DNA of 44,509 nt. It comes from Ruminococcus sp. (GTDB lineage Bacteria > Bacillota > Clostridia > Oscillospirales > Ruminococcaceae). Positions 10,121 through 21,361 of the stretch are shown here, piece by piece (the stretch's first letter is position 1; each line of letters starts with the position of its first letter). Position numbers and translations under genes: made by a program. Location: positions 1-44,509 of the forward strand of contig JAFWWU010000037.1 of NCBI GenBank assembly GCA_017523285.1, in the 5' to 3' direction. The notes below the pieces were generated by a model. The model saw only the letters and a program-made list of their open reading frames with translations, ran no database searches and was not told the DNA's origin.

Positions 10121-10153
10121 GAAGGCTATCAGTATTATTTACCGATAGCCTTC
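10121..10153 (-). terminator. Terminator of the degV-trmL unit
   Basis: GAAGGCTATC (10121-10130) pairs with GATAGCCTTC (10144-10153). On the minus strand it follows the degV stop by 4 bp and is followed by TTCTT. Confidence 0.7.
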
Positions 10154-10157
10154 TGTA

Positions 10158-11030
10158 TTATTTGGAAGTATTTTTTCTGAATGCAACACCAACAAGGTCA
10201 GGACCTGCATTTGCCGCAACAGCTGCACCGACTTTGCTGTAATATTCAGCCTTATAGCCGAATTTCTTAATCATTTCCTTTTCAAGTAATTTTGCAAGAG
10301 TATCATCCTTAGCAGTAAGCATAATATAAGGAGTCTGAGGAGTCATAACCTTTTCAATCTGAGACATAAGCTTTGGAATTATATTCTTTTCGCCTCTGAT
10401 TTTCTCATGGATTATTGAGCCGCCGTTAACCATTTCAATAACAGGCTTTAATCCGAGAAGCTCACCTGCAAAAGCAGCAGCAGCAGAAATTCTGCCTGAT
10501 TTTTTTGCATATTTAAGAGTCATAGGTACAAAATAAGCTGTAATACAGCTGAACCATTCTTCAAGGTAAGCGATGATACTTTCCGCATCTGTACCCTTAG
10601 CGACTTTTTTTGCAGCTTCTGTAACAGGATATCCGTACATTCCTGTATATCCGTTTGAGTCGATTACTTTAATGCTGATTTTATTTTTAGCATCAGGATT
10701 TTCTTCATAGAAATTATTTATAGCCATAACAGCGTTGGAATTTGTAGCAGAAGCAGTACCTGCAATTGTAACACAGATAATATTTGTATAACCCTGTTCA
10801 AAAGCTTCTTTGTAAGCTTCTTCGAATTCGAATGCAGTAATCTGTGCTGTTTTAGGAATATTATCTGATTTATCCATAAGCTCATAAACTTCATCTTTGG
10901 TTTTCTCTATTTCTCTGAAGCTGAGTTCATCGATTGAAATATTGAAAGGCATAACCTTTATGCCGAGTTCTTTAATTAATTCAGGCTCAAGATCGCAAGC
11001 CGAATCAGTCATAATTAATATTTTCTGCAT
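10158..11030 (-). CDS. DegV family fatty-acid-binding protein
   Basis: 290 aa. DegV (FakB-like) proteins bind a fatty acid and present it to the FakA kinase for phospholipid synthesis. The family N-terminus ILIMTDSACDLEPELIKELG is clear, as are IKVIDSNGYTGMYG and the Ser/Thr-rich binding region near residue 85 (TIAGTASATNSNA). ATG with AAGGAG 7 bp upstream. It lies 13 bp downstream of trmL on the same strand, so probably cotranscribed. FakA is not in the window. Confidence 0.9.
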   Translation of the reverse strand: MQKILIMTDSACDLEPELIKELGIKVMPFNISIDELSFREIEKTKDEVYELMDKSDNIPKTAQITAFEFEEAYKEAFEQGYTNIICVTIAGTASATNSNAVMAINNFYEENPDAKNKISIKVIDSNGYTGMYGYPVTEAAKKVAKGTDAESIIAYLEEWFSCITAYFVPMTLKYAKKSGRISAAAAFAGELLGLKPVIEMVNGGSIIHEKIRGEKNIIPKLMSQIEKVMTPQTPYIMLTAKDDTLAKLLEKEMIKKFGYKAEYYSKVGAAVAANAGPDLVGVAFRKNTSK

Positions 11031-11043
11031 TTTTATACTCCTT

Positions 11044-11538
11044 TTACCATTTATACTTTGTTAGCTGACCTTCTGTTGCAAGGTCAGGGTAATCCCATTG
11101 TCTTAGAATTTCATAAGTTGCAATTGCAACAGAATTTGAAAGGTTAAGACTTCTCAGATTATTTCTCATAGGTATTCTTACGCAGTTTTCCTCATTTTCA
11201 TACAAGAGTTCTTCAGGCAGCCCCTTATCTTCACGCCCGAAAATAATATATGCGTTATCAGGATACTGAACATCACTGTGAACGTGTCTGCCCTTTGTTG
11301 TAAAATAAAAGAACGGACCGTTGTTTTTACTGAAGAAGTCCTCAAAATTTTCGTAATAAGTAATATCAAGCTTATCCCAGTAATCAAGACCTGCACGTTT
11401 AAGCTGTTTATCGGTAATTTCAAATCCGAAAGGCTTTATAAGATGAAGCTTAGCGCCCGTAACAGCACAGGTTCTGGAGATGTTGCCTGTATTCTGCGGA
11501 ATCTGAGGTTCTGCAAGAACGATATTAAGATTATACAT
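11044..11538 (-). CDS. trmL: tRNA (cytidine/uridine-34 2'-O)-methyltransferase (SPOUT family)
   Basis: 164 aa, matching TrmL length. It methylates the wobble ribose of certain leucine tRNAs with SAM. The SPOUT knot motifs are all present: NIVLAEPQIPQNTGNISRTC at the N-terminus, IIFGREDKGLP in the middle, and IPMRNNLRSLNLSNSVAIA at the end, which forms the trefoil knot. The start at 11538 has GGAG upstream. Divergent from the 57-aa ORF. Confidence 0.93.
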   Translation of the reverse strand: MYNLNIVLAEPQIPQNTGNISRTCAVTGAKLHLIKPFGFEITDKQLKRAGLDYWDKLDITYYENFEDFFSKNNGPFFYFTTKGRHVHSDVQYPDNAYIIFGREDKGLPEELLYENEENCVRIPMRNNLRSLNLSNSVAIATYEILRQWDYPDLATEGQLTKYKW

Positions 11539-11600
11539 AAAGTCACTCCGTGTATATTTTATGTAATTCTGATAAAAATATAAGTGTGAATGTCACAAAA

Positions 11601-11655
11601 TCGGCTTAACGTCTGCCGAAAAGACGATACCGCACCGAAGATGCCGTAGGTGTGG
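11601..11655 (+). ncRNA. GC-rich structured leader of the 57-aa ORF (unknown class)
   Basis: In an AT-rich context this stretch has several complementary blocks. TCGGC (11601-11605) matches GCCGA (11615-11619). CGTCT (11610-11614) matches AGACG (11622-11626). CCGCACC (11630-11636) matches GGTGTGG (11649-11655). The first two pairings interlock, giving either a small pseudoknot or two alternative folds. The last hairpin ends 3 nt before the ribosome site GGAG at 11659. I do not recognise a described riboswitch. Confidence 0.4.
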
Positions 11656-11667
11656 CTCGGAGCAAAT

Positions 11668-11841
11668 ATGGATATTAAATCAATAGTAAAAAGCGTAACC
11701 TTCGGAACAGCGGCAGGACTTGTTTGCTATACAGTTACTGCGGCAAGCACAGGGAAAAAGAGAAGCATCAAAAAGAATGCAGGAAAAGCACTGAAAGCCG
11801 CAGGAAATGTACTTGATGAAATCACATCAATTATAATGTAG
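11668..11841 (+). CDS. Small hypothetical protein, 57 aa
   Basis: ATG at 11668 follows GGAG (11659-11662) with 5-nt spacing, better supported than an in-frame ATG at 11650. The protein has a hydrophobic small-residue segment (VTFGTAAGLVCYTVTAA, about 9-25), then a basic stretch GKKRSIKKNAGKALKAAG and a short amphipathic end. It could be a small membrane-associated protein. No family is recognised. It is preceded by a structured leader and its 3' end overlaps ruvX convergently by 11 bp, with no terminator visible between them. Confidence 0.6.
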   Translation: MDIKSIVKSVTFGTAAGLVCYTVTAASTGKKRSIKKNAGKALKAAGNVLDEITSIIM

Positions 11842-12256
11842 CAGTATTTTTTCTGAAATCAAGATAGCTTTCAAGAATAATAGTAGCCGCAACAGCGTCT
11901 ACAACAGCTTTTCTTTTTTTACCTCTAGTATTTGTAACATTGAGGTAATTATGTGCTGAAACGGTTGTACAACGCTCGTCCCACAGTTTAACGGGACAAT
12001 TTACAAGCTTTGCCAGTTCTTCTGAAAAGAGCTGGCATTTTTCTGCTCTTTCACCGATTGTTCCGTTCATATTCTTAGGAAATCCTACAACGATTTCTTC
12101 TGCTTTATGCTCAGCAGCAAGTGCAGCTGTTTTCTGTATGCAGGTATTAAAATCTTTTTCTTCGATTACACATACAGGAGAAGCAAGCATTTCACTTTTA
12201 TCACAGCAGGCAATTCCTGTTCTTGAATCGCCGAAATCAACAGACATAATTTTCAT
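11831..12256 (-). CDS. ruvX: Putative pre-16S rRNA nuclease / Holliday-junction resolvase-like (YqgF/RuvX)
   Basis: 141 aa, normal for YqgF. RNase H-like fold with the first catalytic Asp in MSVDFGDSRTGIACCD, the middle glycine-rich region IVVGFPKNMNGTIGERAEK, and the DERCTTVSA motif. The family matures the 5' end of 16S rRNA; a Holliday-junction role was proposed earlier. It follows pyrD by 16 bp on the same strand, so it may be the last gene of the pyrK-pyrD unit. Confidence 0.92.
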   Translation of the reverse strand: MKIMSVDFGDSRTGIACCDKSEMLASPVCVIEEKDFNTCIQKTAALAAEHKAEEIVVGFPKNMNGTIGERAEKCQLFSEELAKLVNCPVKLWDERCTTVSAHNYLNVTNTRGKKRKAVVDAVAATIILESYLDFRKNTATL

Positions 12257-12272
12257 ATAAATTACCTTTCTG

Positions 12273-13184
12273 TTACCATGGCTTTACTGAGCCGATAATT
12301 TCCTTAACAGATGAAATGTTCTTGTTGTCAAGGAACTCATTCATTTCATCGATTATCTTTACAGGTGCAAACGGGTCAGTAAATATTGCCGCACCAACCT
12401 GAACAGCAGAAGCACCAGCCATCATAAGTTCGATAGCATCTTTACCGCTTGCAACACCGCCCATACCGATAACAGGGATATCAACAGCATTAGCAACCTG
12501 CCATACCATTCTTACAGCGACAGGGAAAACAGCAGGTCCTGAAAGACCTCCGACATTATTTTTAAGAATTGGTCTGCCTGTATTTACATCAATTCTCATT
12601 CCAAGAAGTGTATTGATAAGCGATACAGCGTCAGCACCTGCGGCTTCAACTGATTTTGCAATATCTGTAATACTTGTAACATTAGGTGAAAGCTTAACTA
12701 TAAGAGGTTTGCTTGTTGCTTTTCTTACCTTTGATGTGATTTCAGCGGCTGTTTCGCATGAAGTACCGAATGCAGCACCGCCCTGTTTTACATTAGGACA
12801 TGAAATATTAAGCTCAATCATATGAACATCAGTAGAATCAAGCTTTTCAGCGATAGTAACACATTCATCAATAGTAGAACCTGCAATATTTGCAAGAATA
12901 ACAGTATCCTTTGTAAGAAGATTAGGAAGCTCAACATCAATGAATTTATCAATTCCCGGATTCTGTAATCCTACAGAATTAAGCATTCCGCTTGGAGTTT
13001 CAGCAATTCTCGGAGAAAGATTGCCTGTACGCTGAGTAATTGTAGTTCCCTTTGTAGCTATACCGCCAAGCTTTGAAAGCGGAAAAAGTTCTTCATATTC
13101 TCTGCCATAGCCGAAAACACCTGATGCAGGAATAATAGGATTTTTAAAATCAACACCGCAGATTTTTACAGATAAATCAGCCAT
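12273..13184 (-). CDS. pyrD: Dihydroorotate dehydrogenase B, catalytic subunit
   Basis: 303 aa FMN enzyme that oxidises dihydroorotate to orotate, class 1B, using NAD+ through PyrK. The N-terminus VKICGVDFKNPIIPASGVFGY, the active-site Cys in ELNISCPNVKQGG, and the FMN-phosphate motif GMGGVASGKDAIELMMAGAS are all present. Its start overlaps the pyrK stop by one base (TAATG), consistent with a tight PyrD2-PyrK2 complex. Confidence 0.95.
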   Translation of the reverse strand: MADLSVKICGVDFKNPIIPASGVFGYGREYEELFPLSKLGGIATKGTTITQRTGNLSPRIAETPSGMLNSVGLQNPGIDKFIDVELPNLLTKDTVILANIAGSTIDECVTIAEKLDSTDVHMIELNISCPNVKQGGAAFGTSCETAAEITSKVRKATSKPLIVKLSPNVTSITDIAKSVEAAGADAVSLINTLLGMRIDVNTGRPILKNNVGGLSGPAVFPVAVRMVWQVANAVDIPVIGMGGVASGKDAIELMMAGASAVQVGAAIFTDPFAPVKIIDEMNEFLDNKNISSVKEIIGSVKPW

Positions 13185-13954
13185 TACCAGACAACCTCCT
13201 CAGCCTTGAATACAGGGCCTTCCTTGCATACATGTGCAAAGTATTCCTCATCATTCTTCTTTGTTTTGCAAGCACATACAAGACAAGCACCAATACCGCA
13301 GCCCATACGCTCTTCAAGTGAGATTTCACAGTAAGCACCATATTTGTCTGCAAGTTCAGAAACAGCCTTGAGCATTGGCATAGGGCCGCAAGCATATACA
13401 GCATCAACACCGCCATTTTTAAGTGTATCTTCAAGCGGAGATGTAACAAATCCCTTTATGCCCATAGTACCGTCGTCAGTACATAAAATTGTTTCAGCGC
13501 CAGAAGCTTTGAATTCATTTTGAAGAATTACAGCGTCAGCGCTTCTGAATCCTGTAATAACAGCAGCTTTATTTCCGTAATACTGTGCAAGCGGAAGCAT
13601 TGGAGGAGTCCCTATTCCGCCGCCGATTAATACAACCTTTTTGAATTCAGGGTTTAAAGTAAATCCATGACCGAGAGGTGCAAGCATATCGATTAAGGAA
13701 TCAACATTGAGCTTTGCAATTTCGGCAGTTCCTTCGCCTCTTACCTCAAAAACAATTTTTAATGTACCTTTGGATTTATTGATTTCACAGATAGAAACAG
13801 GTCTGCGTAGAGTAAATCCGTTTGCTCTGATATGAACGAACTGTCCGGGAACAGCAACTTCCGCAACCTCAGGGCAAAGAATTTCAAAGCAGTATATTTC
13901 TTTTGCGATAACGCTTTTTTTGATAATCTGAAATTTACCTTGTGTATATTTCAT
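13184..13954 (-). CDS. pyrK: Dihydroorotate dehydrogenase B, electron-transfer subunit
   Basis: 256 aa ferredoxin-reductase-like protein carrying FAD and a 2Fe-2S cluster. It passes electrons from PyrD to NAD+. RRPVSICEIN is the FAD-binding motif, VLIGGGIGTPPMLPLAQYY the NAD-binding loop, and EERMGCGIGACLVCACKTK supplies the cluster cysteines. The ATG at 13954 is preferred over 13972 because AAGGAG lies 7 bp before it and falls inside the longer version. A consensus promoter precedes it. Confidence 0.95.
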   Translation of the reverse strand: MKYTQGKFQIIKKSVIAKEIYCFEILCPEVAEVAVPGQFVHIRANGFTLRRPVSICEINKSKGTLKIVFEVRGEGTAEIAKLNVDSLIDMLAPLGHGFTLNPEFKKVVLIGGGIGTPPMLPLAQYYGNKAAVITGFRSADAVILQNEFKASGAETILCTDDGTMGIKGFVTSPLEDTLKNGGVDAVYACGPMPMLKAVSELADKYGAYCEISLEERMGCGIGACLVCACKTKKNDEEYFAHVCKEGPVFKAEEVVW

Positions 13955-13985
13955 AATGTTCTCCTTTCGCATTTACTATTATATA

Positions 13986-14148: not shown

Positions 14149-14262
14149 GTTAATCCTGTGAGGTTGACAAGGCGGTAACCATATATGCTTTATTACTTAG
14201 TCATAGGTATAGCTATATGCAAATTACAACGCTTATCTGTCAACACAGGTAAGCGTTTTTTT
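14149..14262 (+). promoter_or_regulatory. PyrR attenuator (binding hairpin, antiterminator, terminator)
   Basis: The PyrR-binding hairpin is GTTAATCC (14149-14156), loop TGTGA, GGTTGAC (14162-14168), matching the known UCCnGnGAGGU loop. The terminator is AACGCTTATCTGT (14228-14240) with ACAGGTAAGCGTT (14245-14257) followed by a run of T to 14262. The antiterminator is visible: CCTGTG (14155-14160) and TTGACA (14164-14169) pair with TGTCAACACAGG (14238-14249). As known for Bacillus, UMP-bound PyrR should hold the first hairpin, block the antiterminator and stop transcription. Confidence 0.92.
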
Positions 14263-14277
14263 GTAGGAGAAATTATT

Positions 14278-14808
14278 TTGAGTAAACAAAGAAGTATTAT
14301 GGACGGAGAGGCAATGCAGCGTGCCATGACAAGAATTACATACGAAATTCTTGAAAGAAATAAGGGCGCTGATGACCTTTGCATAGTCGGAGTTCTGTCA
14401 AGAGGTGTTGCTCTCGGAAAGAGAATTGCCGATAAGATTTCAGAGCTTGAAAATGTATCTGTACCTTTCGGTGCAATTGATATTACTCCGTCAAGAGATG
14501 ATATCAATAACAGCGATATCAATGATAAAACTGAAATATCATTTGATATCAGAGATAAGCGTGTTATTCTTGTTGATGATGTAATATTTACAGGCAGAAC
14601 AGCAAGAGCAGCCATTGATGCACTTATCAAGCGTGGCAGACCAAAGTCTATACAGTTTGCTGTTCTTATTGACAGAGGACATCGTGAACTACCGATAAGA
14701 CCTGATTATGTAGGGAAAAATCTCCCGACCTCAAGAGAAGAGGAGATTATTGTATCAGTCAGTGAAACTGACGGAAGCGACAGCGTTTCGATAGCTGTTG
14801 CTGAATAA
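14278..14808 (+). CDS. pyrR: Bifunctional pyr operon attenuator / uracil phosphoribosyltransferase
   Basis: 176 aa, usual length. The PRPP-binding loop reads [20 protein letters not shown] and the RNA-binding/type I PRTase core is intact ([28 protein letters not shown]). The start is TTG at 14278 with AGGAGA 7 bp upstream. A longer frame from 14185 would run through the attenuator and is rejected. It regulates its own operon through the leader. It is followed by pyrC at 15 bp. Confidence 0.95.
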
Positions 14809-14823
14809 ACAATGGAGGAAAAT

Positions 14824-16092
14824 ATGGATACGATACTTTTAAAAAGTATAAGAGCTGTTGATGCAGAAAATGATTTTATATCTGATATTTATATCGAGGA
14901 CGGAAAAATAAAATATGTTGCCGACAGTATTGACATGGACGCAGATATAGTCATTGACGGAACAGGACTGGCAGTTATGCCGTCATTCTTTGATATGCAT
15001 GTGCATTTCAGAGATCCTGGTTTTACGCATAAGGAAGATGTTCTTACAGGCTGTTACGCAGCACTTGCAGGCGGCGTAACGGGTGTAGTTTGTATGCCTA
15101 ATACAAACCCTGTTGCCGATAATGCCGATACAATAAAATATGTAATAAACAAGGCTGAGGGAACAGGCGTTGATGTTTATCCTGCTGGTTGTATTACAAA
15201 TGGAATGAGTGGAAGCGGTCTTTGCAACTATAAAGAGCTTATTTCGGCAGGTGTAAAAGCAATTTCAGATGACGGACGACCTGTTGAAAATGCAGAACAG
15301 ATGCGTCAGGCACTTGAAATGTCAAACGATAACGGCTTGCTTGTGATTTCTCATTGCGAGGATTTAAGCATAATAAACGGCGGTATTATGAATAAAGGAG
15401 AAATATCCGAAAAGCTCGGCGTCAAGGGAATGGACAGAGCTTCTGAGGATATGATAACAGCAAGAGAAATTATCCTTGCTGAAAGTGTAGACGCAAGAAT
15501 ACATATTGCTCATGTAAGTACAAAGGGCAGTACAGAAATAATACGTCAGTCGAAAAAAGCAGGAGTAAAGGTAACATGTGAAACCTGTCCGCACTATTTT
15601 CTTCTTACAGATGAAAAGCTTCTTGCAAGAGATGCGGATTTCAGAATGAATCCGCCCCTGAGAACTGCTGAGGATACAGAAGCTATCATAGAGGGAATTG
15701 TTGACGGCACAATAGATTGTATTGTTACCGACCATGCCCCTCACGCAGCTGAGGAAAAGGCTGATTTTGAAAAAGCTCCCAATGGCGTTGTAGGACTTGA
15801 AACATCATTTGCCGCATCACTTACAGGACTTTATCATACAGGAAAAGTAAGCCTAAATAAAATTGTACAGCTTATGTCGGTTAATCCGAGAAAGCTTCTC
15901 GGACTTGAATATATTTCGATTAAACCAAACGAAACAGCAGACCTTGTAATTGCAGATTTGAACAAGGAATGGACTGTTGAGCCGCAGATGCTTCATTCAA
16001 AATCAAAGAACACCGTATTCAAAGGAATGAAGCTTAAAGGAAAGCCAATTATGACCCTTTCTAAGGGAGAAATAAAATATAAAGAAATGTGA
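14824..16092 (+). CDS. pyrC: Dihydroorotase (class I)
   Basis: 422 aa zinc amidohydrolase that cyclises carbamoyl-aspartate to dihydroorotate. Metal ligands are seen in DMHVHFRDPG, HVSTKGS, ETCPHYF and the catalytic Asp in VTDHAPHA. The C-terminal beta domain (ISIKPNETADLVIADLN) is complete. I chose the ATG at 14824 because GGAGG at 14814-14818 fits it. The ATG at 14812 overlaps that site. Confidence 0.95.
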   Translation: MDTILLKSIRAVDAENDFISDIYIEDGKIKYVADSIDMDADIVIDGTGLAVMPSFFDMHVHFRDPGFTHKEDVLTGCYAALAGGVTGVVCMPNTNPVADNADTIKYVINKAEGTGVDVYPAGCITNGMSGSGLCNYKELISAGVKAISDDGRPVENAEQMRQALEMSNDNGLLVISHCEDLSIINGGIMNKGEISEKLGVKGMDRASEDMITAREIILAESVDARIHIAHVSTKGSTEIIRQSKKAGVKVTCETCPHYFLLTDEKLLARDADFRMNPPLRTAEDTEAIIEGIVDGTIDCIVTDHAPHAAEEKADFEKAPNGVVGLETSFAASLTGLYHTGKVSLNKIVQLMSVNPRKLLGLEYISIKPNETADLVIADLNKEWTVEPQMLHSKSKNTVFKGMKLKGKPIMTLSKGEIKYKEM

Positions 16093-16102
16093 GGAATTTG
16101 CT

Positions 16103-17026
16103 ATGTCATTTGACAGACTTATTGAGAAAATCATTGAAACTAAAAACCCTACTGTTGTAGGTCTTGACCCACGACTTGAATATGTTCCTGAATACTTACA
16201 GAAAAGATATCTTGATGATGACGGCTGGAGCCTTAAAGCTGCTTCAAGAGCTATTTTCAGCTTCAATAAGCTCATTATCGATGAAATCTGTGATATCGTA
16301 CCTGCTATAAAGCCACAGGCTGCATACTATGAAATGTACGGACATCACGGCGTAAAGACACTTGAAAGAACAATCCGTTATGCTCAGTTAAAGGGTATGT
16401 ATGTAATCACAGATGGTAAGAGAAACGACATCGGAGCTACAATGGAAGCTTATGCAACAGCACATCTCGGCTCAGTAAAAATCGGTGAAAACGAAATCGA
16501 GCCATTCGGTGCAGACGCTCTCACAGTAAACGGTTACCTCGGAACAGACGGTATTGATCCACTTCTTAAAATATGCAAGGAACGTGACAAGGGTATCTAT
16601 GTTCTCGTAAAGACTTCAAATAAATCAAGCGGAGAGCTTCAGGACAAGCTTATCGACGGAACACCAATATACGCAGTAATGGGCGATATGTGCGAAAAAT
16701 GGGGCGAAGATACTATCGGTAAATATGGTTATTCAGCAGTCGGAGCAGTTGTAGGTGCAACATATCCACAGCAGCTTGCAGAGCTCAGACAAAGACTTCC
16801 TCACACAATGTTCCTCGTTCCCGGCTATGGTGCACAGGGCGGCGGTGCAGAAGGCCTTAAGGGTGCATTTGATGATAACGGTCTTGGTGCAATTGTAAAC
16901 TCATCAAGAGCTGTAATGTGTGCATATCAGAAAGAGGGCTGTGATGAACGTGATTTTGCAAAGGCAGCTCGTCGTGAAGTTATAAGAATGAGAGACGATA
17001 TCACATCATATATCAATCTGAAATAA
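16103..17026 (+). CDS. pyrF: Orotidine-5'-phosphate decarboxylase (long subfamily)
   Basis: 307 aa, the longer bacterial subfamily 2. It converts OMP to UMP. VVGLDPRLEYVP is the substrate-binding start, KPQAAYYEMYG follows, and the catalytic Lys-Asp-Asp set is in ITDGKRNDIGATMEAYA. The phosphate loop is near FLVPGYGAQGG. ATG is 10 bp after pyrC with GAGGAA upstream. Confidence 0.95.
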   Translation: MSFDRLIEKIIETKNPTVVGLDPRLEYVPEYLQKRYLDDDGWSLKAASRAIFSFNKLIIDEICDIVPAIKPQAAYYEMYGHHGVKTLERTIRYAQLKGMYVITDGKRNDIGATMEAYATAHLGSVKIGENEIEPFGADALTVNGYLGTDGIDPLLKICKERDKGIYVLVKTSNKSSGELQDKLIDGTPIYAVMGDMCEKWGEDTIGKYGYSAVGAVVGATYPQQLAELRQRLPHTMFLVPGYGAQGGGAEGLKGAFDDNGLGAIVNSSRAVMCAYQKEGCDERDFAKAARREVIRMRDDITSYINLK

Positions 17027-17052: not shown

Positions 17053-18168
17053 ATGTCGTTATTCAACCAAAGTGAAAAAGCGTATCTCATGCTTGCTGAC
17101 GGACAGATATTTGAGGGCAGAAGCTTCGGTGCAAAGGGTACTGTTATAGGAGAGGTTGTATTTACAACAGGTATGACAGGCTATCAGGAAACTCTGACCG
17201 ACCCGAGCTACTGCGGACAGATAGTAGCGCAGACCTTTCCTCTTATAGGAAATTATGGCGTTAATGACGAGGATAACGAAGCATCGGAAGCTTATGTAAG
17301 CGGATATGTTGTAAGAGAATGGTGCAATACACCATCAAATTTCAGAATGGATAAAGAGTCTGATATAAATGAATACCTTAAAAACCATAATGTTGTAGGT
17401 ATTCACAGCATAGATACAAGACGTCTTACCCGTCTTATAAGGGAAAAAGGCGTTATGAACGGAGTAATCACAACAGAAGACGTTTATTCAAAAAAAGCAG
17501 AGTTTTTAGAGCTGATTAATTCATTTTCTGCTGAAAATACTGTAATGAAAACAACAGTATCAGAGGCTGTCGAAATTACTCCTGAAAATCCGCAGTATAC
17601 AGTTGCTGTAATGGATTTCGGCTGCAAAAAATGCTTTATCAATGAGCTTCTCAAAAGAAACTGCAAGGTAGTAAGAATGCCTGCAAACACGAGTGCTGAT
17701 GAAATCAAAGCAATTTCACCAGATGGAATATTCCTTTCGAACGGTCCGGGAAATCCTGCCGCAGATAAGCAGATTATCGAAAATATAAAGGCGATGACAG
17801 AGCTTTCACTTCCGATTTTCGGAGTATCATTCGGACATCAGCTTCTTGCACTTTCACAAGGGGCAGAAACCGAAAAGCACAGCTATGGCCATAGAGGTGC
17901 AAATCAGCCTGTAATTGACCTTGCAAGCGGTAAAACCTATGTTACAGAGCAGAATCACGGTTACATTGTAAAACCAGAAAGCCTTGATGATTCATCATAC
18001 AGATTAACCCATATCAATGCAAATGATAAAACCTGCGAGGGTATAAAGTATAACAATATAAATGCATTTTCAGTTCAGTTTTATCCTGCCGCACATGGCG
18101 GACCTCTTGACACTTCATATTTATTTGATGATTTTGTAAAGAGTATGAACAGTAAGGAGGCAAAGTAA
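17053..18168 (+). CDS. carA: Carbamoyl-phosphate synthase small subunit, glutaminase triad lost
   Basis: 371 aa, full length. CarA normally hydrolyses glutamine and passes ammonia to CarB. The N-terminal domain (GEVVFTTGMTGYQETLTDPS, IDTRRLTRLIREKG) and GATase core (LSNGPGNP, QNHGY) are well conserved, but the catalytic residues are replaced. The nucleophile motif GxCxGHQ reads GVSFGHQ (Ser259, codon TCA at 17827). The His-Pro-Glu motif FSVQFHPE reads FSVQFYPAA (Tyr344 and Ala346). With Cys, His and Glu all gone, glutaminase activity is not expected. The frame is uninterrupted and coupled to carB, so this is a selected variant and not decay. I infer an ammonia-dependent enzyme, with CarA retained as a structural or allosteric partner. 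It lies in the PyrR-controlled operon. Confidence 0.93.
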   Translation: MSLFNQSEKAYLMLADGQIFEGRSFGAKGTVIGEVVFTTGMTGYQETLTDPSYCGQIVAQTFPLIGNYGVNDEDNEASEAYVSGYVVREWCNTPSNFRMDKESDINEYLKNHNVVGIHSIDTRRLTRLIREKGVMNGVITTEDVYSKKAEFLELINSFSAENTVMKTTVSEAVEITPENPQYTVAVMDFGCKKCFINELLKRNCKVVRMPANTSADEIKAISPDGIFLSNGPGNPAADKQIIENIKAMTELSLPIFGVSFGHQLLALSQGAETEKHSYGHRGANQPVIDLASGKTYVTEQNHGYIVKPESLDDSSYRLTHINANDKTCEGIKYNNINAFSVQFYPAAHGGPLDTSYLFDDFVKSMNSKEAK

Positions 18169-18169
18169 T

Positions 18170-21100
18170 ATGCCGCTCAGAAGTGATTTGAAAAAAGTTC
18201 TTGTAATCGGTTCAGGACCTATTGTAATCGGACAGGCTGCCGAATTTGACTATGCAGGAACACAGGCATGCCGTGCACTGAAACAGGAGGGACTTGAAGT
18301 TGTTCTCATCAACTCAAACCCTGCCACAATTATGACAGATAAATCAATGGCGGATAAAATCTACATTGAGCCTCTTACACTTGACGTTGTAAAAAGAATA
18401 ATTGAAATTGAAAAGCCTGACAGCGTTCTTTCTACTCTTGGCGGACAGACAGGACTTACTCTTTCAATGCAGCTTGCAGCGGAGGGATTTCTTGACGCTC
18501 ATAATGTAAAGCTTCTCGGTGCTGACCCTGAAACAATCCACAAAGCAGAGGACAGACAGGCTTTCAAGGATACAATGGAAAAAATCAATCAGCCATGTAT
18601 CCCATCAAAAGTAGTTGAAACAGTAGAGGATGCCGTTGATTTTACAGAAGTAATCGGCTATCCTGTAATTATCCGTCCTGCTTTCACACTCGGAGGAACA
18701 GGCGGCGGTATTGCCTATAACGAGGCAGAACTGCGTGAAATTTCAACAAACGGACTCAGACTTTCTCCGATTACACAGATTCTCGTTGAAAAGTGTATAA
18801 GCGGCTGGAAGGAAATTGAATTTGAAGTAATCCGTGACAGCAAGGGCAATGTTATAACAGTATGCTCAATGGAAAACCTCGACCCTGTAGGTGTTCATAC
18901 AGGCGATAGTATCGTTATTGCGCCTGCTGTAACTCTTACAACAGTTGAATTCAATATGCTAAGAAGTGCAGCACTTGAAATCGTATCTGAATTAAAGGTA
19001 GAGGGTGGCTGTAACTGTCAGTTTGCACTTAATCCCGATAGCCTTGAATATGCAGTAATCGAAGTAAACCCAAGAGTTTCACGATCATCTGCACTTGCTT
19101 CAAAGGCAACAGGCTATCCTATTGCAAAGGTTGCAACAAAAATTGCAATCGGCTATACACTTGATGAAATTCTCAATCAGGTAACAGGTAAAACATATGC
19201 CTGCTTTGAGCCGTCAATTGACTATGTAGTAATTAAGTTTCCTAAATGGGCATTTGATAAATTCGTATACGCAAAAAGAACACTCGGCACACAGATGAAA
19301 GCAACAGGCGAAGTAATGTCAATCGGTACAAGCTTTGAACAGGCACTTATGAAGGCTGTTCGTTCAATTGAGCTTGGACTTGACAGTATGAATATGCCAA
19401 AGCTTGAAAAATGCTCAACAGCAGAAATATTATCAATGCTTTCAAATGTTGACGATGAACGTTCATTCCAGGTTTACGAAGCATTGAAGCGTGGTATTTC
19501 AATTGATGAAATCCACGATATCACAAAGATTGATAAATGGTTCCTCAGTAAGTTTATGAATCTTATAAATCTTGAAAGATGGCTTGCTGACGGAGAGCTT
19601 ACAGAAGATAAATATAATATTGCAAAGCAGTATGGCTATCTTGACAGCACAATTGAAAGAATGTCAGGTCAGAAATGCCCTGCAAGAAAAAGAGCTGTAT
19701 TTAAAATGGTTGATACCTGTGCCGCTGAATTCAAGGCTGAAACTCCGTATTTCTATTCAACATTTGATGAAGAAAACGAAGCTGCTGAATTTATAGAAAG
19801 AACTGACATAGGCAAGAAAAAGGTTATCGTATTCGGCTCAGGTCCTATAAGAATAGGACAGGGTATCGAATTTGACTATTGTTCTGTTCATTGCGTATGG
19901 ACTCTTAAAGAGCTTGGCTATGAAGCTGTAATATGCAATAATAACCCTGAAACAGTTTCAACCGATTTTGATACAGGTGACAGACTTTATTTCGATCCTC
20001 TTACAAGAGAAGATGTAGAAGCTATAATCGAAACTGAAAAGCCTTATGGCGTAGTTGTTCAGTTCGGCGGACAGACAGCAATCAAGCTTACAAGACATCT
20101 TTCAGATATGGGAGTAAATATTCTCGGAACATCGGCTGACAATATAGATGCCGCAGAGGACAGAGAACGCTTTGATGAGCTTCTTGAAAAGTGCAATATC
20201 CCACGTCCTGAAGGTTTTACCGTAATGACAACAGAAGAAGCGGTTGAAGTAGCTGAAAAGCTCGGATATCCTGTACTTCTCCGTCCGTCATACGTTCTTG
20301 GCGGTCAGAATATGATTATCGCTTACTCACAGGCAGATGTAGTTGAGTATATGGGAATTATCACCCGTACAATGCTTGAAAATCCTGTTCTTATCGATAA
20401 ATATATGATGGGTACAGAAGTAGAAGTTGATGCTATATGTGACGGAAAGGATTTCCTCATCCCTGGTATTATGGAGCACGTTGAACGTGCAGGTGTCCAT
20501 TCAGGTGACTCTATTTCAGTTTATCCTGCTCAGAATTTATCTTCTTCAATCAAAAATACAATCATTGAATATACAAGACTACTTGCAACAGAGCTTAACG
20601 TAATCGGTCTTGTAAATATTCAGTATGTTGTATATAATAATCAGGTATATGTAATTGAAGTTAATCCACGTTCATCAAGAACAGTACCGTATATCAGCAA
20701 GGTTACAGGAATACCTATGGTAGATATCGCAACAAAGATAATGCTCGGCTCTACTCTTGCAGAGCTTGGCTATGAAAGCGGTCTTTATCCTGAGGGTGAC
20801 TATGTTGCTGTCAAAGTTCCTGTATTCAGCTTTGAAAAGCTTCAGGATGTTGATACAATGCTCGGACCTGAAATGAAGTCAACAGGAGAATGTCTTGGAA
20901 TTGCACACACATTTGAAGAGGCACTTCTCAAGGGACTTGTAGCCGCAGGCTACGACCTCAAAAAAGAGGGCGGAGTGCTTATTTCTGTAAGAGACAGCGA
21001 TAAGCAGGAAATAATCCCGATTGCTGATAAATTCGCTTCAATGGGCTTTGAGCTTTACGGTACAAGCGGTACAGCAAGTATGCTTAACAGAAATATGATT

Positions 21101-21361
21101 GCCACAAATCTTGTAAGAAAAATTTCAGATGGCGAGCCTAATACAATCTCATTACTTGAAAGCGGAAAGATTCACTATATGATTTCAACCTCCGCAAAGG
21201 GCAGAATGCCTGCACGAGATAGTGTAAAAATGAGAAGAAAATCTGTTGAGCGTTCTGTATGCAGTCTTACAGCAATTTATACAGCAAAGGCTCTTGCAAA
21301 TGTACTCCAGTCAGGCAAAACAATAGATGACGTTGAGCTTGTAGATATTACAAAAATATAA
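18170..21361 (+). CDS. carB: Carbamoyl-phosphate synthase large subunit
   Basis: 1063 aa, normal length. Two homologous ATP-grasp halves: the first ([36 protein letters not shown]) phosphorylates bicarbonate, the second ([35 protein letters not shown]) phosphorylates carbamate. A C-terminal MGS-like allosteric domain ([14 protein letters not shown]) binds UMP or ornithine in relatives. Metal-binding [20 protein letters not shown] and [20 protein letters not shown] are both intact. It starts 2 bp after carA with AGGAGG upstream, so the two are coupled. Nothing in it looks degenerate, in contrast to carA. Confidence 0.97.
   Translation: [1063 protein letters not shown]

Follow-up and report, generated by a model that had tools for sequence, protein, structure and literature searches.

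A small subunit of carbamoyl-phosphate synthetase with a replaced glutaminase triad in a Ruminococcus pyr operon, probably part of an ammonia-run enzyme

The window analysed here (the whole 44,509-nucleotide contig JAFWWU010000037.1 of the Ruminococcus sp. assembly GCA_017523285.1) encodes a carbamoyl-phosphate synthetase (CPS) small subunit, CarA, in which the catalytic cysteine, histidine and glutamate of the glutaminase are all replaced, directly before a large subunit, CarB, whose compared functional positions are unaltered. We judge it probable that this CarA is a dead glutaminase retained as the partner of CarB and that CarAB makes carbamoyl phosphate from ammonia; the organism would then probably use ammonia directly to build its pyrimidines, much as urea is made in land vertebrates. 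The loss of glutaminase activity, ammonia as the donor, the scaffold role of CarA and an ecological cause are what we infer from sequence comparison.

The carA gene (17053–18168, + strand) translates as a single intact frame of 371 codons, without stop or frameshift, and its 371-aa product scores 435.6 bits against TIGR01368 (cut-off 307.35); this full-length profile match and the place directly before carB identify it as a CPS small subunit by descent. Alignment with E. coli K-12 CarA shows the nucleophile Cys269 replaced by Ser259 (TCA, 17827–17829, +), His353 by Tyr344 (TAT, 18082–18084, +) and Glu355 by Ala346 (GCC, 18088–18090, +), with Phe260 (17830–17832, +) in place of Leu270 adjoining the nucleophile. 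The translated motifs read GVSFGHQ and QFYPAA, and phmmer alignments give the same triad correspondence; the Cys-His-Glu triad of a glutamine-hydrolysing CPS small subunit is thus missing from this protein, as the sequence-only reading had said. That reading also held the rest of CarA to be well conserved, which proved true of the N-terminal part (domain of residues 1–185 by our own division, 17053–17607, +), at 83% identity over residues 1–145 (146 aa) to G104, the nearest intact relative and our reference for the pyr locus and CarB. It was not true of the class-I glutaminase domain (17608–18165, +, with a PF00117 match), which is fast-evolving and only 62% identical to G104 over residues 162–368 (207 aa; both figures from translated segments). 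We take the N-terminal domain to be the CarB-facing part, on E. coli precedent.

The setting is a PyrR-controlled operon, as the sequence-only reading had proposed: a PyrR-binding leader RNA (RF00515; 14138–14264; 58.8 bits, gathering threshold 54) precedes, all on the + strand, pyrR (14185–14808 as listed; its real start is probably near 14280, because the family match begins at residue 34), pyrC (dihydroorotase, 14812–16092), pyrF (OMP decarboxylase, 16103–17026), carA and carB (18170–21361; 1063 aa; TIGR01369, 1449 bits), the pyrC and pyrF products being recognised by profile match. A single base separates the carA stop from the carB start, and AAGGAGG inside the end of carA (18155–18161, +) is the likely ribosome site of carB. 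Divergently, on the − strand, lie pyrD (dihydroorotate dehydrogenase, 12273–13184, profile match) and a pyrK-like gene for the electron-transfer subunit of that enzyme (13184–13972; best NCBIfam score 222.7 bits, under its cut-off of 314). This divergent group (10140–13972), made up of pyrK, pyrD and three more genes upstream of pyrR, is unlike the layout in G104 (locus L088), where these genes follow carB in one operon. Identities to the G104 locus, again over translated segments, are 85% for PyrC, 89% for PyrF, 90–93% for CarB, 86% for PyrD, 71% for PyrR and 50% for PyrK.

The description of CarB as well conserved holds: along with its overall identity to G104, 58 of 58 compared positions, which we take to be catalytic, tunnel or effector residues, are the same in the two proteins, including the tunnel gate C232/A251. 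The window's CarAB thus combines a lost catalytic cysteine with intact synthetase sites, as an ammonia-type CPS would. Evolutionary rates were compared with 27 intact loci of the genus (a few representing the same genome twice), which yield 328 pairs once those with CarB identity of 97% or more are set aside. For the window the ratio of glutaminase to CarB distance is 3.46 (27 pairs, minimum 2.65) against 1.84 for intact pairs (s.d. 0.41, maximum 3.16), while the ratio of N-domain to CarB distance is 2.47 against 2.55. When branch lengths were fitted to a fixed 28-tip CarB tree, the terminal branch of the window came to 0.095 for CarB, 0.411 for the N-terminal domain and 0.722 for the glutaminase domain, and its glutaminase/CarB branch ratio of 7.6 is the highest of the 27 usable tips (next is L053, with 5.3), some other tips having ratios inflated by very short CarB branches. 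The N-domain branch ratio is also raised (4.3 against 2.5 tree-wide), so that relaxation appears stronger in the glutaminase domain but not confined to it. Of the columns conserved in at least 98% of intact CarAs, the glutaminase half has changed 12 of its 64 and the N half 3 of its 50; the enrichment is no more than borderline (Fisher 0.054, or 0.22 once the triad is excluded) and two far-diverged intact CarAs, L065 and L091, change 19 and 26 such columns against the window's 15, so it is the rates that carry the argument.

In the mechanism that we propose, CarA, without nucleophile, base and the base's carboxylate, would be unable to hydrolyse glutamine, and CarAB would therefore run on free ammonia. 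In the pyr-operon enzyme the two unaltered ATP-grasp sites of CarB would convert free ammonia and bicarbonate, with 2 ATP, to carbamoyl phosphate; the N-terminal domain of CarA would be kept to bind or stabilise CarB, translation of carA may help to start that of carB, and the glutaminase domain would relax meanwhile. The dead CarA would probably be one part of a lineage-level shift of nucleotide synthesis towards ammonia, a broader withdrawal from glutamine amidotransferases that has also cost GMP synthase its glutaminase domain. A CPS that runs on ammonia and keeps CarA as a scaffold, first suggested by the sequence-only reading, is still the best account, given the single carA of the genome, the unaltered CarB, the decay of the glutaminase, a GMP synthase without glutaminase domain and the PyrR leader; it has to be qualified in that good conservation does not extend to the glutaminase half, a stand-alone CarB is present and the trait is rare in the order. 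In its favour are also the intact frame, a second assembly, parallel losses in other CarAs and an association across the genus, which are taken up below. Herbivore guts would supply enough ammonia; our literature search on ruminococcal nitrogen use found no direct statement to that effect. Against the ammonia reading, E. coli CPS is described as needing a very high concentration before it takes ammonia (PMC6245113), and the N domain, PyrK and PyrR (the latter two at the 50% and 71% given above) have also diverged from G104.

The likely carB ribosome site sits within carA, which raises the question of whether CarA does anything as a protein: it could be a remnant, translated only through its coupling to carB and with no enzymatic role, CarB alone working on ammonia. 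The relaxing glutaminase domain and its 12 changed conserved columns would suit such a remnant, as would the stand-alone CarBs of the genus, 1074–1113 aa long where whole and with their ATP-grasp residues kept, which in the four loci inspected (L083, L084, L085 and L087) have no carA beside them. We nevertheless consider it unlikely, since the frame is full-length, with neither stop nor frameshift, the pairwise ratio of the N-terminal domain is the same as in intact CarAs, and 47 of the 50 conserved N-domain columns are kept.

The search for a second, intact carA that the sequence-only reading had called for was run on the organism's own genome (a draft of 2.84 Mb in 174 contigs, 97.5% complete, with a stated contamination of 1%) and found none, the one extra match (E 0.03) being a response regulator. 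In a PF00117 scan of that genome three matches were over the cut-off, namely this CarA, HisH and CobQ, and two were below it, one of them PurL. The motifs of HisH (GICLGMQ and QFHPEK), CobQ (GICGGYQ) and PurL (GICNGFQ) are intact, so glutamine is still used elsewhere in the cell, and a wholesale loss of amidotransferases was rejected. Going beyond the sequence-only reading, the only GMP synthase match of the genome is, as far as domain matches tell, a GMP synthetase without a glutaminase domain: this GuaA, which lies in the interior of a 48-kb contig, is a 335-aa stand-alone frame of ATPPase and C-terminal domains that matches TIGR00884 over its full length and begins to match PRK00074 only at position 189 of that model's 512. 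It also appears to have no GATase subunit, none having been found in the PF00117 scan of the genome; the same scan found no TrpG-type GATase, and there was no match to CTP synthase over the cut-off. Genomes G013, G042 and G125 likewise have no PF00117 match of CTP synthase length.

The genome does hold a second CarB (CarB2), 45% identical and split over two contig ends (C27 and C132), in which all compared residues of the sequenced part, those of the ATP-grasp sites included, are kept. CarB2 might be the CPS that does the work, with the entire CarAB pair of the pyr operon on its way out, a view to which the genomes of the genus without this CarA lend some colour: they lack the pyr-type CarB as well, and among the matches listed theirs are all of the type with ~46% identity. 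What makes it improbable, more so than a remnant CarA, is that the pyr-operon CarB remains close to that of G104 and evolves normally, that the PyrR leader is kept, and that many genomes whose CarAB is normal carry CarB2 too.

Among 125 genomes of the genus, CarB (E ≤ 1e–80) was found in 120 and CarA (E ≤ 1e–60) in 102, and many carry a second CarB of ~46% identity. The CarB frames of L056–L060 and L063 are 1267–1367 aa long, with a C-terminal extension of roughly 200–300 aa. In the 68 good genomes (at least 90% complete, at most 5% contaminated) a CarA match was absent from eight (G011, G013, G042, G043, G066, G084, G111 and G114); G066 was rejected as a carA-less genome, its contig C96 ending inside another CarA type beside PyrG and PurF. 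Seven of the 68 have only a short GuaA (G000, G011, G042, G043, G066, G084 and G114; frames of 335–369 aa, 121–127 bits), a count from which G040 was left out for its 265-aa frame, full-type score and broken assembly; GuaA was not seen in G013, G028, G058, G089 and G111. A CarA match was absent from six of the seven short-only-GuaA genomes against two of the 61 other good genomes (Fisher 1.7e–6, kinship ignored; 4e–5 with G066 moved, from lists read by eye and again ignoring kinship), and the seventh is the window's own genome with its dead CarA. PF00117 matches number 1–3 in the seven short-GuaA genomes and in G013 and G111, and 4–8 in the other good genomes. Twelve of 13 short-GuaA loci were recognised by motif as stand-alone frames of 325–356 aa (neighbours viewed by eye), and in a GuaA tree of 21 tips the eight full-length proteins cluster together (support 1.00) and separately from the 13 short ones.

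Tentatively, the CarA described here could belong to a gut lineage that is exchanging glutamine for free ammonia in its nucleotide synthesis. The GuaA that has lost its glutaminase domain, the dead CarA scaffold, the stand-alone CarB of genomes in which no CarA was found and the lack of a TrpG-type GATase and of CTP synthase would be parts of this lineage-level move, and the species of the window would be an intermediate, with a CarA that is dead and undeleted.

Alignment of CarA across relatives, also called for at the outset, showed triad loss to be rare. All 29 other CarA loci of the genus that were read are Cys/His/Glu, and in a pooled alignment of 69 rows (some of them duplicates) 63 distinct CarAs have this triad and four lineages do not: the window, L053/L102 (Gly, Arg, Glu; Ruminiclostridium sp. 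RGIG8540, water deer cecum), L063 (Gly, Ser, Glu; uncultured Clostridia) and L110 (Ala, Tyr, Glu, in GIAFGHQ and QFYPE; MAG RGIG6403, 1459–2505, − strand, beside a carB). These three diverged CarAs lost Cys and His and kept Glu, while the window's lost all three. Identity to the CarA of L053 is low (56% for the window, 46% for L063 and 43% for L110) and the replacements differ, so the losses are taken as separate. An order-wide search matched CarA in 294 of 394 genomes, and 109 of 109 CarAs other than the window's own were Cys/His/Glu among the best-scoring matches listed, which led us to reject triad loss as a general trait of the order; these 110 proteins are the best-scoring part of the matches listed and thus biased towards normal CarAs, so that losses are underestimated and dead CarAs may sit among the low scorers. 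A dead CarA need not imply a shift of the whole cell, since the genome of L063 has a normal carA beside pyrG in addition to its dead one; in the genome of L053 the only PF00117 matches are its dead CarA and HisH. Among the papers listed in our search of open-licence literature, none was seen to describe a bacterial CarA naturally devoid of its triad, or a GMP synthase from bacteria that lacks the glutaminase.

The triad codons could in principle be sequencing or assembly errors at 17827–17829 and 18082–18090, or the bin could be mixed, with the dead CarA and the short GuaA coming from different organisms. A base error is unlikely, because the public sheep-rectum MAG contig JAFXGW010000039.1 (L062) agrees with the window in 739 of the 740 bases of 17672–18411 and repeats all three codons, its sole difference falling in carB; we count it as a second assembly, though perhaps not a fully independent one. 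From ~740 on, carB of that contig runs into unrelated AT-rich DNA, probably through an assembly chimera in MAG RGIG6403. All sequences compared were draft genomes or MAG contigs, none of them from an isolate, except the E. coli record. Suspicion of a mixed bin comes from the draft state of the assembly (174 contigs), from HisH and HisA, which are nearer those of G013 while CarB is nearer that of G104, and from the CarB2 contig C27, which is less like the window in composition (r 0.879, 5 kb); moreover, composition does not separate the window from G104-like species (r 0.963). On the other side, the stretch of contig around guaA matches the window (r 0.966; GC 38.8 against 37.1%; slices of the window itself give r 0.965–0.989, inflated by being part of it), HisB groups with that of G104 as CarB does, albeit weakly (0.53), and the stated contamination is 1%. 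Judged by composition and the his genes, a mixed bin is unlikely, and we regard an artefact of either kind as very improbable. HisA (own contig C151, L256) is 99% identical in protein to those of G013 and G042 (partial), but 85% in DNA; HisH is 81–86% identical in the same comparison (own contig C151/L256, L111 and L103).

Around the lost triad, most of the glutamine-site residues compared are kept in the window's CarA (S47, K202, Q273, N311 and G313), with Phe at L270; we presume S47, Q273, N311 and G313 (E. coli numbering), all four retained, to be glutamine-contact residues. At E. coli tunnel position 293 the window has Ala, the same as intact relatives, which rules out a CPS1-like block by Gln at that position, and together these residues give no sign of a re-routed ammonia path. 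In frog CPS1, where the triad is kept, glutamine use is described as blocked by a lysine at the site equivalent to human Thr295 and restored by Leu there (PMC4655335); from its place after Ser294, this position would correspond to E. coli 270. That CarA still supplies ammonia, by Ser259 acting with another base or by another glutaminase docking on CarB, is the least credible reading of all: most glutamine-site residues are indeed kept, and the presence of HisH and PurL proves that the cell has glutamine to use, but none of the three catalytic residues is left, human CPS1, in which Ser likewise replaces Cys, is stated to be unable to use glutamine (PMC4655335), and no free GATase besides HisH and CobQ is over the PF00117 cut-off.

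A 2018 review names glutamine as the donor that all bacterial CPSases use physiologically (PMC6245113), and reviews likewise present bacterial GMP synthetase as one two-domain chain (PMC9312489, PMC10526850). If the ammonia reading is true, this CPS, with its counterparts in other lineages and the glutaminase-less GMP synthase of the same genome, would mirror in bacteria the way in which vertebrate CPS I arose, and would offer a two-subunit enzyme in which to test what a dead amidotransferase subunit is good for; family models still label both this CarA and the short GuaA as glutamine-hydrolysing.

With ordinary bacterial CarAB the window shares the family, the carA-carB order and the CarB active sites; it differs in its replaced Cys, His and Glu and, by our reading, in ammonia as the presumed donor. 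Vertebrate CPS I (human CPS1, 5DOT/6UEL) likewise has a dead glutaminase-like domain beside a working synthetase, and both human CPS1 and the window have Ser for Cys (PMC4655335); P0001 matches 5dot_A at 8e–60 (phmmer). CPS I is, however, one chain, whereas the window has separate carA and carB frames and so is not CPS I proper; it has also, unlike CPS I, lost all three triad residues, and lacks the Gln block at 293, and the urea-cycle role and N-acetylglutamate activation of the vertebrate enzyme need not apply to this CarAB. The CPSs of frog and Alcolapia are described as having shifted to ammonia through changes in the glutamine site with the triad kept (PMC4655335, PMC7657897), where the window lost the triad; a triad change reported in fish CPS is attributed to sequencing error (PMC7657897). 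Archaeal two-subunit GMP synthetase has a stand-alone ATPPase chain, like the GuaA of this genome, and such modules are said to take external ammonia in vitro (PMC10526850), but it also has a GATase subunit, of which the PF00117 scan of the genome found no counterpart. The ammonia-dependent single-domain NAD synthetase is a further amidotransferase-type enzyme without glutaminase, one that uses ammonia in the cell (PMC3376133); that form is probably ancestral, whereas the glutaminase of the window's CarA would have been lost secondarily.
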